Of a stretch of 32,675 nt of DNA, positions 2,436-15,823 are shown one piece after another (position 1 is the first letter of the stretch; each line of letters begins with the position of its first letter). The stretch is from IMG/VR virus record IMGVR_UViG_3300037586_000561, positions 1 to 32,675 of that record, one strand, 5' to 3'. The stretch comes from a virus. The position numbers and the translations under genes are program-made. The notes below the pieces were generated by a model that was not told where the DNA came from, did no database searches, and was given only the letters and a program-made list of their open reading frames with translations.

Positions 2436-3128
2436 ATGGATAAGCATATATTAAACATAATTACTTCCTTGCATGAAGGAAGTAATAGAATAGTCTGCCC
2501 CTTCTGCGAAGGAGGCAGTAGTAAAGAAAAGAGTTTTATAATTACTAAAGAGGGTAGAAATGTAAAGTATATGTGCCACAGAGCATCTTGCAATGCTCGT
2601 GGTAATACAAACTACAGAGGAGAACTACAACAATCTGCACAACCAGTACAGGCTCCTGTACTAACAACACCCTCAGAGGGTGTATATGCTCTCAGGAGCG
2701 TTAGGGACAACTTAGGCAGGGATAGGGGAGGAGTTTATAGGAGAAAGCCTACAGCGCCCTCTCAGCTGCCCAAGGATATCAATCGTATTGATGATGATTG
2801 GTGTAAGCTACACTTCCCTGCACCAACAGACGCTAAGTGTGTCATCCTCGTAGAGGATATTATTAGTGCAGAGAAGATGCACCCATTCTTCCCTTGTGTT
2901 GCATTGCTTGGTGTACATCTGAATGAACAGAAACTTGCCTACCTAGTAGAGCAAGGGGTGAGGCATGTGATTGTAGCCTTGGACAATGACGCAACACGGC
3001 AAGCTATACGTATTGCTCGTAAGTGGTTATTTGATACAACAATACTTCCCTTGCAAAGGGATTTAAAGGACGAGACATATGAAAGACTACAAGAAATTGC
3101 AGATAATCTCAAATCAAATCAGATGTGA
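2436..3128 (+). CDS. DNA primase (zinc-binding + Toprim)
   Basis: A 230-residue primase that would lay down RNA primers at the replication fork. The N-terminal zinc domain has C21 and C24 (CPFCEGG) and the C47-H48...C52 cluster (CHRASC), the form common in marine podophage primases. A Pro/Gln-rich linker (about 65-115) follows. The catalytic Toprim core then shows the Glu motif at 140 (ILVEDIISAE) and the DxD-type motif at 183-185 (ALDNDA). No helicase domain is fused; the helicase is a separate gene downstream, unlike T7 gp4. I prefer ATG 2436, which has TGGAG 5 bases upstream, over the in-frame ATG 2418, which has no ribosome binding site. The 3' end overlaps the next gene by 50 bases. Confidence 0.85.
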   Translation: MDKHILNIITSLHEGSNRIVCPFCEGGSSKEKSFIITKEGRNVKYMCHRASCNARGNTNYRGELQQSAQPVQAPVLTTPSEGVYALRSVRDNLGRDRGGVYRRKPTAPSQLPKDINRIDDDWCKLHFPAPTDAKCVILVEDIISAEKMHPFFPCVALLGVHLNEQKLAYLVEQGVRHVIVALDNDATRQAIRIARKWLFDTTILPLQRDLKDETYERLQEIADNLKSNQM

Positions 3129-3411
3129 CTACTGTGGTGACACCCCATGGTCGGGACACAGACACGACTACAGGAATTGTAAATGTGGTAGGGTGAGCGT
3201 AGATGGAGGTAATGACTACTTGCGCCGTGGTTGGATAAAGGGCGCTACGTACACGGATATGAGTATAGAGTTTGATAGTGGTCACCTTAAATGTTTAGTG
3301 GCAGATGTAAACGAACACCAGAAGACACGTAACGCTTTAGGTGTTACGTATGCTATGTTTAGGTGGTTTAGAGATAACGGATATGAGATAAGGAGACTAG
3401 ACGATGAGTAA
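3079..3411 (+). CDS. DUF7695-like small zinc-binding protein
   Basis: A 110-residue protein with CDYCGD near residue 16 and CKCG near 34, followed by VSVDGGNDYLRRG. This arrangement (CxxC, HDxxxCKCG, VDGGxDYLRR) matches, from memory, the phage family DUF7695, whose function is unknown. Four cysteines in two pairs suggest one bound zinc. The ATG at 3079 has AAGGA 8 bases upstream and lies inside the primase gene, giving an unusually long 50-base overlap. The 3' end overlaps the phosphoesterase gene by 8 bases. The position between primase and helicase suggests early expression, but no direct link to replication can be read from it. Confidence 0.7.
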   Translation: MKDYKKLQIISNQIRCDYCGDTPWSGHRHDYRNCKCGRVSVDGGNDYLRRGWIKGATYTDMSIEFDSGHLKCLVADVNEHQKTRNALGVTYAMFRWFRDNGYEIRRLDDE

Positions 3412-3931
3412 TGTGTACCTGATATCCGACTTACACCTAGGGCATAAGAATATTCTGGAGTTTGCAGGGAGGTATAGAGCTTGGGCTGACACTGTATTAG
3501 AGCATGATCGCGTCCTAATTGAGCGTATACGCTCTGTGTGCAGAAGTAAGAGAGATGTGTTGTACATCCTTGGAGATGTAGCTATGGGGGTTAAGCAGCT
3601 AGAGTTGTTGAATGAAATACCTGCACGTAAAATACTTGTGAGAGGTAATCACGACACATTCCAAGATGGTGTATACATGAAGTATTTTGACAGCATACAA
3701 GGTATCATACATAAGCGCTACCATGGGCAAGGGTATTGGTTTAGTCATGCTCCTATACACCCACACGAGCTTAGAGGGAGGAAGAATGTACATGGCCACA
3801 CACATGGCAATCTTATCATGAAGAGTGGGTGTGTGCAGGACAAGGATTACATCAATGTGTGTGTAGAGAATTGTAATGGCTATCCTGTCAATACATCAGA
3901 ATTGGAGACATTTAGAGGAGAGATAAAGTGA
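3404..3931 (+). CDS. calcineurin-like metallophosphoesterase
   Basis: A compact 175-residue two-metal phosphoesterase. The family motifs are all present in order: D9-x-H11 (SDLHLGH), G-D58 (ILGDVAMG), G-N82-H83-D (RGNHD), H115 (FSHAPI) and G-H132-x-H134 (VHGHTHG). Single-domain phage proteins of this type are thought to hydrolyse phosphodiesters or phosphate groups of nucleotides, but the substrate cannot be told from sequence. It is unrelated in detail to the second phosphoesterase at 10929, which has a DxQ first motif. The stop overlaps the next gene as GTGA, and the start overlaps the previous gene by 8 bases. Confidence 0.85.
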   Translation: MSNVYLISDLHLGHKNILEFAGRYRAWADTVLEHDRVLIERIRSVCRSKRDVLYILGDVAMGVKQLELLNEIPARKILVRGNHDTFQDGVYMKYFDSIQGIIHKRYHGQGYWFSHAPIHPHELRGRKNVHGHTHGNLIMKSGCVQDKDYINVCVENCNGYPVNTSELETFRGEIK

Positions 3932-4233
3932 ATACTGCGCAAGAGTTAAAGGCCATCAAGAGATGGCAGGGGCTAAAAAAGAAATGTGATGACACGGGCA
4001 TGGAGTTTAATCTGTCTGTAGCAGATGTGCGTGCGTTAATCATTAAGACTAGGTGTCACTACACAGGTAAAGATATTAAATACGGAGATCAAGGGGGCCA
4101 TTTTAGTTTAGATCGAAAGGACAGCTCTCAGGGATACATCAAAGGAAACGTAGTGGCCTGTCACGGTGTGGTGAATAGCTTTAAGGCCAATTTATCGAAG
4201 ATTGATATCCAGAAGATATTGAGGAAGTTATAA
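3928..4233 (+). CDS. HNH-like nuclease-related small protein
   Basis: A 101-residue protein with a GTG start overlapping the phosphoesterase stop. The central and C-terminal part shows CHYTGKDI (C43), SLDRKDSSQGYIKGNVVACHGVVN (residues 60-83, split here as SLDRKDSSQGY then IKGNVVACHGVVN) and an N-x-FK element. This resembles the phage HNH-type fold in which a CxxTG knuckle precedes LDRxDxxxGYxxGNV and an Asn. A canonical HH or DH catalytic pair is not obvious, so it may be a minimal or inactive homing-type nuclease, or a DNA-binding relative. It is sandwiched between the phosphoesterase and the helicase with no gap, which argues for a resident gene rather than a recent free-standing insertion. 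Confidence 0.6.
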   Translation: MNTAQELKAIKRWQGLKKKCDDTGMEFNLSVADVRALIIKTRCHYTGKDIKYGDQGGHFSLDRKDSSQGYIKGNVVACHGVVNSFKANLSKIDIQKILRKL

Positions 4234-9483: not shown

Positions 9484-10266
9484 ATGCACCTATTAATTGA
9501 TGCTGACTCTGCCCTCTATAGGGCAGGGTGTGCCAATGAAGAGAGGACGTACAGATGTACGTTAGAAGGTCAACTACTAGAGGAGTTTAGATACAAGAGT
9601 GATGCTAAAGTTTTTGCAGAAGAGTATGGCTGTGAGATTGTTAAACACAAAACAGCTGGCCCCATAGGGCTTTCACTGCACAACTTGAGACAATGCGCTA
9701 AGAATTTCTTTGCTATCGAGCACGATAGCTATGAGATGTTCATAGGGGGTAAGGGTAATTTTCGTTATGACTACTACCCTGAGTATAAAAACAACAGAGA
9801 TGGAGATGATAAACCTGTTCATTTAGAACAGATGAAGAAACATTTACAAGCTCAGTATGGAGCTGTCCGTATAAACGATGAAGAAGCTGATGATGTTGTT
9901 AGCTATAAGCAATGTATGGCTGAGAAGGACAGTACGTGCATTGTAACGATTGATAAAGACTTAAACAATACAGCCGGATGGCATTACAACTGGGTGAAGG
10001 GAGATATGTTTTATGTCACAGAGAAGGAAGCTGATCTAAACTTTGCAAGACAACTACTGTCAGGAGATGCTACAGATGGGATACCGGGACTTAAGGGAGT
10101 TGCTGCTAAGACAGCAATTAAACTACTACCAGAATATAGGGATGATTGGTTGGAGTTTGTTAAACATACTTATCTGGAGAGAGGTTATACTCTCGATTAT
10201 CTAAATCAAATGGGTATAATGCTATATATGCGAAAGAAGCCCGAGGAGATTTGGTCATGCGAGTAG
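9484..10266 (+). CDS. 5'-3' exonuclease (FEN/PIN family)
   Basis: A 260-residue structure-specific 5' nuclease that would remove RNA primers or degrade host DNA to nucleotides. Metal-binding acidic motifs occur in order: D6-x-D8 (LIDADSALYR), YKNNR at 101-105, EEADD at 133-137, D157-x-D159 (TIDKDL), and the helix-hairpin-helix segment GDATDGIPGLKG at 194-205, followed by the AAKTAIKLL helix. This is the order seen in T5 exonuclease and T7 gp6. The last 10 bases overlap the HNH gene. Its place next to ThyX and NrdJ fits a role in nucleotide recycling. Confidence 0.88.
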   Translation: MHLLIDADSALYRAGCANEERTYRCTLEGQLLEEFRYKSDAKVFAEEYGCEIVKHKTAGPIGLSLHNLRQCAKNFFAIEHDSYEMFIGGKGNFRYDYYPEYKNNRDGDDKPVHLEQMKKHLQAQYGAVRINDEEADDVVSYKQCMAEKDSTCIVTIDKDLNNTAGWHYNWVKGDMFYVTEKEADLNFARQLLSGDATDGIPGLKGVAAKTAIKLLPEYRDDWLEFVKHTYLERGYTLDYLNQMGIMLYMRKKPEEIWSCE

Positions 10267-10742
10267 AAGGTTGGACAGAATCTAAGTTTTTTAGCTTCAT
10301 TCGCTCTGCCTTACGCAGAGCATTTACAAAATATCCAAACAAATACAAAGCATTAAATGCTGCTAGGAGGGTTAAGAAGCATGCCAAAGGTAGACAAAAG
10401 TGGGAGTATAGATGTGCCTCATGTACCAGATTTTATGCTGGGAAGAGTGTACAGGTGGATCATATTATACCTGCCGGAAGTTTGCGTAGCTTTTCTGATC
10501 TACCAGACTTTTGTTCTCGCCTCTTCTGTTCTGTAGAGGGTTTACAAGTGTTGTGTCATAAATGCCACACAGTGAAGACAAATACAGAGAGAGGGATTGT
10601 ACCAGAGATTGCAGCATTCAAGAAGCTGCCAGCTAAGAAACAAATAGCTAAGCTTAAGCGCTTAGAGTTGGAGGTTGGTAGTAATGCTGCTAAACGTATA
10701 GAGATATTTACAAGGTATCATAAGTCTAAGGAGGATGCATGA
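10257..10742 (+). CDS. HNH endonuclease
   Basis: A 161-residue nuclease with the zinc-bound HNH (treble-clef) core: C53 and C56 (CASC), the D68-H69 pair (VQVDHIIPAG), and LQVLCHKCHTVKT with C100, C103 and H104. The 50 N-terminal residues are helical and very basic. The DHIIP-type HNH family cuts DNA. I prefer ATG 10257, with GAGGAG 8 bases upstream, over the TTG at 10251. It is tightly overlapped on both sides (10 bases and 4 bases), which points to an established gene that may act in recombination or packaging; a homing function cannot be excluded. Confidence 0.8.
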   Translation: MRVEGWTESKFFSFIRSALRRAFTKYPNKYKALNAARRVKKHAKGRQKWEYRCASCTRFYAGKSVQVDHIIPAGSLRSFSDLPDFCSRLFCSVEGLQVLCHKCHTVKTNTERGIVPEIAAFKKLPAKKQIAKLKRLELEVGSNAAKRIEIFTRYHKSKEDA

Positions 10743-12967: not shown

Positions 12968-13194
12968 GCAGGGATAAGAACAGCACCTACTACGATGTAG
13001 GAGGTATTGAGGTGTTGGATGTTATTAAAGCTAAGCTAACATCAGAACAATACATAGGGTATTTGTTAGGGAATGCTATTAAATACACATGCAGAGCTAA
13101 TTTCAAGGGTAGTATGGCTAGAGATATTGAGAAGGCTGCTAACTACACGAAGTGGATTGGGGAGTTGACAGAGGAGAACAATACAGTTGGATAA
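12964..13194 (+). CDS. DUF3310 family protein
   Basis: A 76-residue protein with the hallmark pattern of the phage DUF3310 family: a tyrosine start (STYYDVGGIEVLDVI), then EQYIGYLLGNAIKYTCRA, then FKG and DIEKAANYTKWI. This all-helical family is nearly universal in phages and often lies near nucleotide-metabolism genes; its biochemical function is not established. The gene overlaps both neighbours (4 bases at the start, 8 at the end), so its translation is likely coupled to nrdJ. Confidence 0.85.
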   Translation: MSRDKNSTYYDVGGIEVLDVIKAKLTSEQYIGYLLGNAIKYTCRANFKGSMARDIEKAANYTKWIGELTEENNTVG

Positions 13195-14499
13195 TTACGC
13201 AGAGTATATAGCCCTTAGCCGTTACGCTAGATGGGTGGAAGAGAAGGGTAGAAGAGAGACATGGCCTGAAACTGTACATAGATATATTAAGTTCTTTGAA
13301 GATAGGGGCTCCTTAGACGCAACCTTGGCTGAGAATTTAGCAGATTCTATTATAGATTTAGAAGTGATGCCCTCTATGCGCTGTCTTATGACAGCAGGGG
13401 ATGCATTAAACAGGGACAATGTAGCTGGCTTCAACTGTAGCTACTTAGCCATTGATCATGTACGTTGCTTTGATGAGCTTATGTACATCCTTATGTGTGG
13501 TACAGGGGTTGGGTTTAGTGTTGAGAGGCAATACATTGCCAAGCTACCAGAGATACCAGAGGAGTTGCATGAGTGTGACACAACTATTGCCGTAGCAGAT
13601 AGTAAGATAGGGTGGGCTAGTAGCTTTAAGCAGCTCATATCCCTGCTCTATGCTGGCCAGATCCCTAAGTGGGATGTTAGCCGAGTACGCGCTGCTGGAG
13701 CACCACTAAAAACATTTGGTGGGAGAGCTAGCGGCCCTCAGCCGCTTGAAGACTTGTTTAGCTTTGCAGTTAACCTCTTCAAAGCAGCTGTAGGACGCAA
13801 GTTTAATAGTATTGAATGTCATGACTTGGTGTGTAAGATTGCTGACATTGTTGTTGTTGGTGGGGTTAGGAGGAGTGCTCTTATCTCCCTGTCCAACTTA
13901 ACAGATGACAGGATGAGGAGAGCTAAATCAGGACAGTGGTGGGAAGACAACGGACAAAGAGCGTTAGCAAACAACAGTGCTTGTTATACAGAAAAGCCTG
14001 ACCTAATATCATTTATGAAAGAGTGGGAGAGTTTATATGAATCAAAATCAGGAGAGCGGGGAGTTTTCTCAAGAGTGGCAAGCCAGAGACAGGCTGCTAA
14101 GAATGTCAGGAGAGATAGTGGATGGGATTTTGGAACAAACCCATGTAGTGAGATCATCCTCCGACCCAATCAGTTCTGCAATCTCAGCGAAGTTGTGGTA
14201 CGAGCAGGAGATACAATGGGAGATCTTGAGCGCAAAGTGCGCCAAGCTGCAATCCTTGGCACGTTACAGAGCACACTCACTGACTTCCGATACCTAAGAA
14301 GTGTATGGAAACGTAACACTGAAGAAGAAGCTTTGCTTGGTGTGAGCTTGACAGGGATCATGGATAACGCTGTTCTGTCTAATAGCACTGACGATGATCT
14401 AGCAGCCCTCCTAGAGAGGCTTAAGGAGATAGTAGTTGAAACGAATAAAGAATGGGCTGAGAAGCTTGGTGTTAATCCTTCTACTGCCACCACTTGCGT
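13187..14499 (+). CDS. nrdJ: class II ribonucleotide reductase NrdJ, exon 1
   Basis: The first 437 codons plus two bases of codon 438 of a monomeric, adenosylcobalamin-type ribonucleotide reductase. Active-site residues follow the Lactobacillus RTPR layout: C84 (FNCSY) and C331 (FCNLSE) as the redox pair, thiyl-radical C320 with E322 (TNPCSEI), and exactly 11 residues between C320 and C331. The stretch ILMCGTGVGFSVER (101-114) is typical of this subclass. The start is TTG 13187, with GAGGAG 10 bases upstream; it places SRYARWVEEKGRRETW at the usual N-terminal position. Without splicing, the frame continues Val-Asn-Val and stops at TAG 14507-14509. Splicing to exon 2 gives a protein of 624 residues. 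Lack of an R2 subunit or activase in the window fits class II. Confidence 0.9.
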
Positions 14500-15261
14500 T
14501 AACGTTTAGCGCCATCATAGAGTAATTTATGAATGATAATCATGTGAACTGCTGGAAACCTAAGTTGAAAGATAGGGCAATCAGCAGCCAAGCCCCAGAG
14601 ATGGGGAAGGTTCAGAGACTATCCGAGAAGTCGGAGTACGCTCCAAGTGGAGCGGAAGCGCATGACATCCCACGGGATGAAGATATAGTCCGATCCCCAG
14701 AGAAATCTGAGGGCAGTGAGGTTAAGATGTTTTTATATTGGATAACATTTAAAGATACAGACAGCCTTTATATTGGAATCACTAACAATGTAAAGAGACG
14801 AATAGCTGCACATAAACAAGCAGCCAAGTCTGGCAAGAGCACTCCATTATATGCTTGTATTAGAAAGTATAATGAGTTTACTTTAACTGTTATGGAAACA
14901 TATAAAACTAGAGAAGAAGCTAATGACGCAGAGAAGTATTGGATTTCTTATGGAAGAGAGTGTTATTGGAAGCTTTTAAACTTAGCCGATGGCGGTGAAG
15001 GTGGTTTTGTTATAACGAATGTAGAAGATTGGAAGGGTAAATTAAGAGCAGCCCGTAGGGGTGCTAAGCCTTTCTTAGGAAAGACACATTCAGATCAAAC
15101 TAAAAAGTTGTGCGGTGTAGCAGGAAGCAAATTTAAGCTATACGATAAAGAAGAAGTCTTAAAGTATTCTTTTAAAGAAGCACATGAAAAGTTTGGTATT
15201 AGCAAAACTCACTACTACCGCCTAAAGCGGGCATAGAGTAACGATCTATGTTGAACTTTTG
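14500..15261 (+). ncRNA. group I intron (IA type) in nrdJ
   Basis: A 762-base self-splicing intron. P1: GCGTTAA (14496-14502) pairs with TTAGCGC (14506-14512), placing U14499 opposite G14509, the U-G pair that defines the 5' splice site. The last intron base is G (15261). Core helices: P3 TCATG/CATGA (14540-14544, 14661-14665), P4 CTGCTG/CAGCAG (14549-14554, 14582-14587), P5 CCTA/TAGG (14559-14562, 14573-14576), P6 CCCC/GGGG (14593-14596, 14603-14606), P7 GACTAT/ATAGTC (14617-14622, 14685-14690), a P7.1/7.2-like hairpin GCTCC/GGAGC (14639-14643, 14648-14652) typical of IA, and P8 CATCC/GGATG (14666-14670, 14675-14679). P9 has a GAAA tetraloop (14695-14713). The S element AAGATATAGTCC is textbook. 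A further hairpin, CATAGA/TCTATG, lies at 15232-15250. P10 could form between TTA 14506-14508 and exon 2 TAA. Confidence 0.93.
14727..15236 (+). CDS. GIY-YIG homing endonuclease (intron-encoded)
   Basis: A 169-residue homing endonuclease inserted after P9 of the intron. It opens with the GIY-YIG module: YWITFKDTDSLYIGITNN (residues 4-21) with the following VKRRIAAH Arg/His helix. The catalytic Glu is likely in the NDAEKYWISYG region or the LADGGEGG element. The C-terminus carries a NUMOD3-like PFLGKTHSDQTKKL and an IENR1/HTH-like YSFKEAHEKFGISKTHYYRL, both DNA-binding modules of such enzymes. ATG 14727 has GTGAGG 5 bases upstream. The frame is open back to 14529, but that part crosses the ribozyme core and is probably not used. 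The enzyme would cut intron-less nrdJ alleles and spread the intron. Confidence 0.88.
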   Translation: MFLYWITFKDTDSLYIGITNNVKRRIAAHKQAAKSGKSTPLYACIRKYNEFTLTVMETYKTREEANDAEKYWISYGRECYWKLLNLADGGEGGFVITNVEDWKGKLRAARRGAKPFLGKTHSDQTKKLCGVAGSKFKLYDKEEVLKYSFKEAHEKFGISKTHYYRLKRA

Positions 15262-15823
15262 TAAGCCTAGTGGCACTGTATCTCAGCTGGTTAACAGCAG
15301 TAGCGGTATTCATCCTCGTTTTTCTTCTCACTACGTCAGACGAGTGAGGGCTGATGTTAAAGATCCACTGAGCCAGTTGATGATTGATCAAGGTGTTCCA
15401 CACGAAGCGGATGTTATGAATCAGAACAACTATGTGTTTAGCTTTCCCCAGAAAGCACCAGAGAATGCTATCTGTACCTCTGATGTGTCTGCTATGGAAC
15501 AGCTTAAGCTGTGGAAGATTTACCAAGATAGCTGGTGTGAACACAAACCATCCATCACTGTGTATTATTCAGATGATGAATTCCTAGAGATAGGAGCTTG
15601 GTTGTATAAACACTTTGATGACATCTCTGGTATAAGCTTCTTGCCACGTAGTGAGCATACGTACAAGCAAGCACCTTACGAAGAGATTAATGAGGAGATG
15701 TATGAGGACATGAAGGCTAAGATGCCTGAGCTTAATTGGGGTTTGCTTGGCTCTTACGAGCAAGCTGACATGACAGAAGGGCAGCAGACATTAGCCTGCA
15801 CCGCAGGGGGTTGTGATATATGA
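15262..15823 (+). CDS. nrdJ: class II ribonucleotide reductase NrdJ, exon 2
   Basis: The C-terminal 187 residues of NrdJ. The joined codon is GT|T (Val438), after which the reading frame gives KPSGTVSQL, the conserved loop that contacts substrate phosphate. The exon ends in LACTAGGCDI, whose two cysteines are five residues apart, the same spacing as the C-terminal redox pair of RTPR that re-reduces the active site. Intron phase is 2. An independent ATG at 15248 lies inside the intron in the same frame, but a protein starting there would lack the active site. The stop overlaps the lysozyme start as ATGA. Confidence 0.88.

Follow-up and report, generated by a model that had tools for sequence, protein, structure and literature searches.

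The interrupted gene and its phage

This locus raises the question of what lies between two neighboring reading frames resembling a ribonucleotide reductase (RNR), and whether they still yield one enzyme. The window analyzed, meaning the whole stretch of DNA, is positions 1–32,675 of IMG/VR record IMGVR_UViG_3300037586_000561, a 32,675-base uncultured viral contig. When 14500–15261 is removed, the flanking frames fuse to encode a 624-aa NrdJ, as proposed in a first-pass annotation. The junction (TTCV/KPSGT) falls inside the Val438 codon (GT/T), ahead of Lys439, and an alignment with L. leichmannii RTPR (1L1L) places it within the VKPSGT motif, after residue 547 and before 548. The joined protein aligns with 237 intronless viral relatives with no gap at the junction codon, where the sequence is mostly TCVKPSGTVSQL; in these relatives the second bases are nearly fixed for most codons of the junction stretch. 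The parts are as follows.

13187–14499 (+): nrdJ exon 1, from TTG as called (the start is a guess), with GAGGAG at 13171–13176 upstream; similar to RTPR 1L1L and TIGR02505
14500–15261 (+): group I intron, subgroup IA2, 762 nt; identified from RF00028, exon rejoining, and introns at the same site in two other contigs (L362 and L367)
15262–15823 (+): nrdJ exon 2; identified from frame rejoining and alignment with intronless relatives

Among NCBIfam models the joined protein scores best against TIGR02505 (RTPR), reaching 313.7 bits and so falling slightly short of the cut-off (340.05). Its sole relative with a solved structure is 1L1L (E 3e-43), and in that alignment the catalytic cysteines (NPC..C), the VKPSGT loop, and the C-terminal CxxxxC are all found. 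This fits a class II (adenosylcobalamin-dependent, RTPR-like) RNR. The nearest NrdJ proteins are marine roseophage and rhizobial phage enzymes, at no more than 64% identity. The nearest relatives of the internal virion protein and DNA polymerase are from VpV262-like podophages, and the host phage fits this group. Both the enzyme class and the podophage assignment had been suggested in the first-pass annotation, and both are upheld.

Identification and structure of the intron

The Infernal search with Rfam RF00028 that the first-pass annotation had recommended gave a single match in the whole window, at 14490–14712 (+), with 109.5 bits (gathering score 50), E 7.9e-28, and the full model (1–253) covered. 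Taken with the rejoined exons, covariation, and same-site introns described below, it confirms the proposed group I intron at 14500–15261 as real on sequence grounds, at the coordinates first suggested; it is apparently intact, and is predicted to be self-splicing. All helices from P1 to P10 can be placed in it, including every one named in the first-pass annotation, which did not list P2.

14496–14502/14506–14512 (+): P1; exonic U14499 forms a U.G pair with 14509, and the 5′ splice site follows 14499
14504–14508 (+): P10 guide GUUUA, forming five pairs, one of them U.G, with UAAGC of exon 2 (15262–15266)
14507–14509 (+): in-frame UAG, stopping exon 1 translation within P1, ahead of the ribozyme core
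14516–14531 (+): P2, with a GUAA loop; pairing, covariation
14540–14546/14659–14665 (+): P3; pairing, covariation
14550–14555/14581–14586 (+): P4; pairing, covariation
14559–14562/14573–14576 (+): P5; weaker pairing support
14588–14589/14609–14610 (+): P6; RF00028, alignment of 12 introns
14593–14596/14603–14606 (+): P6a; RF00028, alignment of 12 introns
14617–14621/14686–14690 (+): P7, the guanosine-binding helix (GACUA/UAGUC); invariant in 12 of 12 introns
14622–14635 (+): P7.1 hairpin, followed by GUA at 14636–14638
14639–14654 (+): P7.2 hairpin; pairing, alignment
14666–14679 (+): P8; RF00028, covariation
14695–14713 (+): P9, with a GAAA tetraloop (14702–14705), as first described, and a bulged A (14710); RF00028, alignment of 12 introns
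15232–15250 (+): 3′-terminal hairpin (P9.2-like), overlapping the stop codon of the endonuclease ORF; compensatory changes and a shared loop (UAACGA) in L362 and L367
15261 (+): terminal (omega) G, followed by the 3′ splice site; also G in L362 and L367

The single “P7.1-like hairpin” of the first-pass annotation exists but is one of two, the other being P7.2. Its assignment to the IA type can be narrowed to IA2 because P7.1 and P7.2 are joined by GUA, a criterion also applied to the intron of the T7-like phage Pf-WMP3 (PMC3428280). The 10-mer CATAGAGTAA is present twice in the intron, in P2 (14516–14525) and in the 3′ hairpin (15232–15241); this is probably chance, since the repetition is absent from L362 and L367.

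Other self-splicing or mobile elements could interrupt such a gene. Inteins are known in phage and cyanobacterial NrdJ, and some RNR genes are disrupted by homing endonuclease genes (HEGs) without an intron (PMC3653736), but the insert here has next to no chance of being either: the exon 1 frame meets the UAG four codons into the insert, leaving no continuous intein ORF, and the ribozyme match is strong. The stop codon and that match together exclude an intein or an intronless HEG.

The structure was tested on twelve aligned phage introns, whose host genes differ. For the window structure 82.6% of cells were paired, vs. 34–43% in slid controls, and the covariation score was 0.477, vs. 0.08–0.15 in the slid controls, with none of 500 shuffles as high; double changes occurred at 47 pairs. 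P2 was paired in 87% of cells, with changes on both sides at six of six pairs; P3 in 97.6%, with compensatory changes at five of seven; P4 in 97%; P8, also with compensatory changes, in 96.7%; and P5, in a gappy region of the alignment, in 58%. Covariation supports the P3–P9 core that includes the P7 guanosine-binding helix; P7 itself is uninformative by this measure because it is invariant. The P1 of the window was 47% paired because each intron fits its own exon; among the same-site introns it does not vary and thus is uninformative by covariation there too.

The intron-encoded endonuclease

Most of the intron, between P9 and the 3′-terminal hairpin, is taken up by an ORF that was absent from its first-pass description.

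14727–15236 (+): GIY-YIG homing endonuclease with NUMOD3, 169 aa; GAGG at 14718–14721 upstream, homologues at the same site

The protein matches GIY-YIG (PF01541, E 3e-13) and NUMOD3 (PF07460), with a weak C-terminal HTH_23 match. Against TIGR01453, the group I intron endonuclease subfamily, it scores 55.9 bits, where the cut-off is 56.05. The ORF has 36% GC, compared with 48% for the core and 46% for exon 1; such AT-richness would be typical of an added HEG. Used as the sole query, the endonuclease found only weak relatives among phage records, and among viral contigs only itself and one 30% match.

Introns at the same site in other phages

A nucleotide search with the intron returned only short core matches (75–83% over 80–120 nt), in phage introns of other genes. 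Relatives were found instead by a degenerate scan for the P1/guide motif, which gave 82 contigs. Among the 80 loci tested, nrdJ was the host gene only in L362 and L367, besides the window’s twin. A further guide-motif pattern gave five matches, all in unrelated coding sequence.

In L362 and L367, both IMG/VR contigs, nrdJ is broken exactly at residues 438/439, as in the window, although their NrdJ proteins are only 42–69% identical. The L367 contig, at 107,910 bases, is probably from another phage lineage than the window. Its insert is 825 nt long (RF00028, 123.4 bits) and that of L362 782 nt (106.6 bits); both begin with TAAYGTTTAGCGCC and end in G. The internal guide is common to the three phages with one base different (UAAYGUUUAGCGCC). 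P10 can also pair in both, and in L367, where the exon has UAAAC, all of its pairs are Watson-Crick. Pairing is kept by compensatory changes in P2, P3, P7.1, P7.2, P8, and the 3′ hairpin, with one mismatch in the P3 of L367. The GIY-YIG proteins of L367 and L362 are 50 and 38% identical, respectively, to that of the window. The intron cores are 70–74% identical, vs. 54–61% for the flanking exons, a difference that can reflect constraint and is no proof of transfer; to the core of the window, those of L367 and L362 are 73–74% identical. These introns are strong comparative evidence, and the strongest available from the sequences, for both predicted splice sites; they also point strongly to a mobile, site-specific intron lineage.

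The comparison bears as well on whether an unrelated intron could have been placed into nrdJ by chimeric assembly, as might be suspected of an uncultured viral contig. A near-identical contig (L010) carries the same intron with the same junctions, with one mismatch in 7,854 bases, although the two samples are perhaps not fully independent. The guide sequence, moreover, matches the nrdJ exon, and the same insertion is present in two divergent contigs, so an artifact of this kind deserves hardly any credence.

Somewhat more weight, if still very little, can be given to a decayed intron that no longer splices, leaving nrdJ split and its pieces made separately or nonfunctional. Exon 2 has an ATG of its own (15248) opening a 191-aa ORF, and phage Aeh1 has a genes-in-pieces RNR (PMC3653736). 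That ATG, however, is inside the conserved 3′ hairpin and has no evident ribosome-binding site. The core helices, P10, omega G, and endonuclease ORF are all intact, the exons have no frameshift, and the splice signals are maintained in two distant phages.

The reading favored here, with high confidence, is a mobile IA2 group I intron in the Val codon ahead of KPSGT, in the class II RNR gene of a VpV262-like podophage, with splicing and homing predicted from the known group I mechanism. After transcription, ribosomes on exon 1 would halt at the UAG in P1 and the core would fold. Bound guanosine would attack after U14499, and exon 1 would then attack after G15261, joining the exons into the nrdJ mRNA. 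Translation of the intron ORF would supply the GIY-YIG endonuclease, which would cleave intronless nrdJ of co-infecting phages close to the Val codon, and recombination would copy the intron in.

Comparison with known introns

Phage group I introns with HEGs are familiar from genes of nucleotide metabolism, including T4 td, nrdB, and nrdD and the nrdE/nrdF genes of Twort and SPbeta. These hosts encode class I or III RNR or thymidylate synthase, unlike the class II enzyme here. All of them appear in the list of PMC3653736, a phage RNR survey that also gives two split nrdJ genes, in phiYS40 and P60, neither called an intron there. The Pf-WMP3 DNA polymerase intron (IA2; PMC3428280) resembles that of the window in its P7.1-GUA-P7.2 core, podophage host, internal HEG, U.G pair at the 5′ site, and P10. 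It differs in its host gene, in having an HNH HEG that overlaps the core, and in lacking P2; its splicing has been shown experimentally, whereas that of the window is predicted from the sequence. The L367 and L362 introns share with the window the codon, the subgroup, a homologous GIY-YIG HEG, and a nearly identical guide.

The intron type is thus a familiar one, set apart chiefly by its host gene. What has been described less often is the class II host and a site-specific lineage common to distant phages. The first-pass annotation considered such a host much less often described. This agrees with the literature searched, mostly from outside subscription journals, in which no phage nrdJ was found described as having a group I intron. 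The sequence data bear it out less well: intron-like inserts interrupt nrdJ in at least two GenBank isolates, and one of these inserts passes RF00028. Marine virioplankton commonly carry class II RNR genes, which serve as ecological markers; where introns at catalytic codons split nrdJ, annotations give two genes or overlook it. Self-splicing elements were already known to target conserved RNR codons, and their targets now include a B12-dependent enzyme in podophages; the same-site homologues make homing testable.

Other interruptions of class II RNR genes

The nrdJ site is uninterrupted in 239 of 244 viral loci. Phage nrdJ is also interrupted by different elements at two other places, before one catalytic cysteine codon and after another, which we take, from the 1L1L alignment, to be Cys408 and Cys419 in L. 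leichmannii RTPR numbering. Some of these interrupted genes are in GenBank isolates, annotated as split genes. On balance, the Val codon ahead of KPSGT seems to harbor a mobile IA2/GIY-YIG lineage of its own, homing between unrelated phage groups, with two other catalytic-site codons occupied by separate intron or intein lineages; phage nrdJ would then be a multi-site hot spot like class I/III RNR. This broader picture is held less firmly than the reading of the intron itself.

After the Cys419-equivalent codon (QFC/NLSE), RF00028 introns are found in Rhizobium phage RHph_N3_13 (L083; 83.6 bits) and, as its second intron, in L362 (91.2 bits). Like that of the window they are at a catalytic-site codon of a phage class II RNR, but they differ in site and in having an HNH-type HEG; their two HNH-type proteins are 69% identical to each other. 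The RHph_N3_13 intron ORF (L083 2734–3180) is annotated as a “postulated decoy of host sigma factor”; by its sequence it looks like an HNH homing endonuclease, and the annotation is probably wrong.

Before the Cys408-equivalent codon (NP/CSEII), nrdJ contains a compact, ORF-free insert of ~172–180 nt in Roseobacter phage CRP-118 and in three contigs (L082 2449–2622; L172 ~938–1112; L173 and L273, likewise before this codon). None of these inserts matches RF00028. Their P7-like GACTA/TAGTC, together with compensatory changes in helices resembling P3, P5, and P8, gives them the look of very small group I introns. The CRP-118 annotation has two RNR genes. An 844-nt insert at NP/C in L316 (~3120–3965) has a LAGLIDADG-like ORF and P7-like motifs, also without an RF00028 match, and a Nodularia phage has an intein before the Cys408-equivalent codon. 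The region examined in Pseudomonas phage ZC03, for which an HEG in an RNR gene is reported, contained no class II homologue.

Group I introns have been reported in cyanobacterial RNR genes (Meng et al., 2007, as cited in PMC12702839 and PMC3984707). Insofar as those accounts describe them, these RIR introns resemble that of the window in being group I introns in an RNR gene, and the Nostocaceae nrdJ searched here are RTPR-like. The best 80 cyanobacterial nrdJ loci had no interruption. A wider Nostocaceae search found interruptions near residues 265 and 400–407, with none near the VKPSGT site among the matches listed. Many Nostocaceae nrdJ have stop-containing inserts with motifs in common, the shortest seen ~240 nt, at NPCG/EI, immediately past the Cys408-equivalent residue, unlike the VKPSGT site of the window; six of them scored below the RF00028 threshold. 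Many others have inteins.

Two further ORFs in the window may be mentioned. One at 3928–4233 (101 aa) lies upstream of the gene for the DnaB-like helicase; it shares 32% identity with the HNH protein of the QFC/NLSE introns (SLDRxDxxxGYIKGN) and probably encodes a free-standing HNH endonuclease. The other, at 10251–10742, is HNH-like and located immediately 3′ of the 5′-3′ exonuclease gene.
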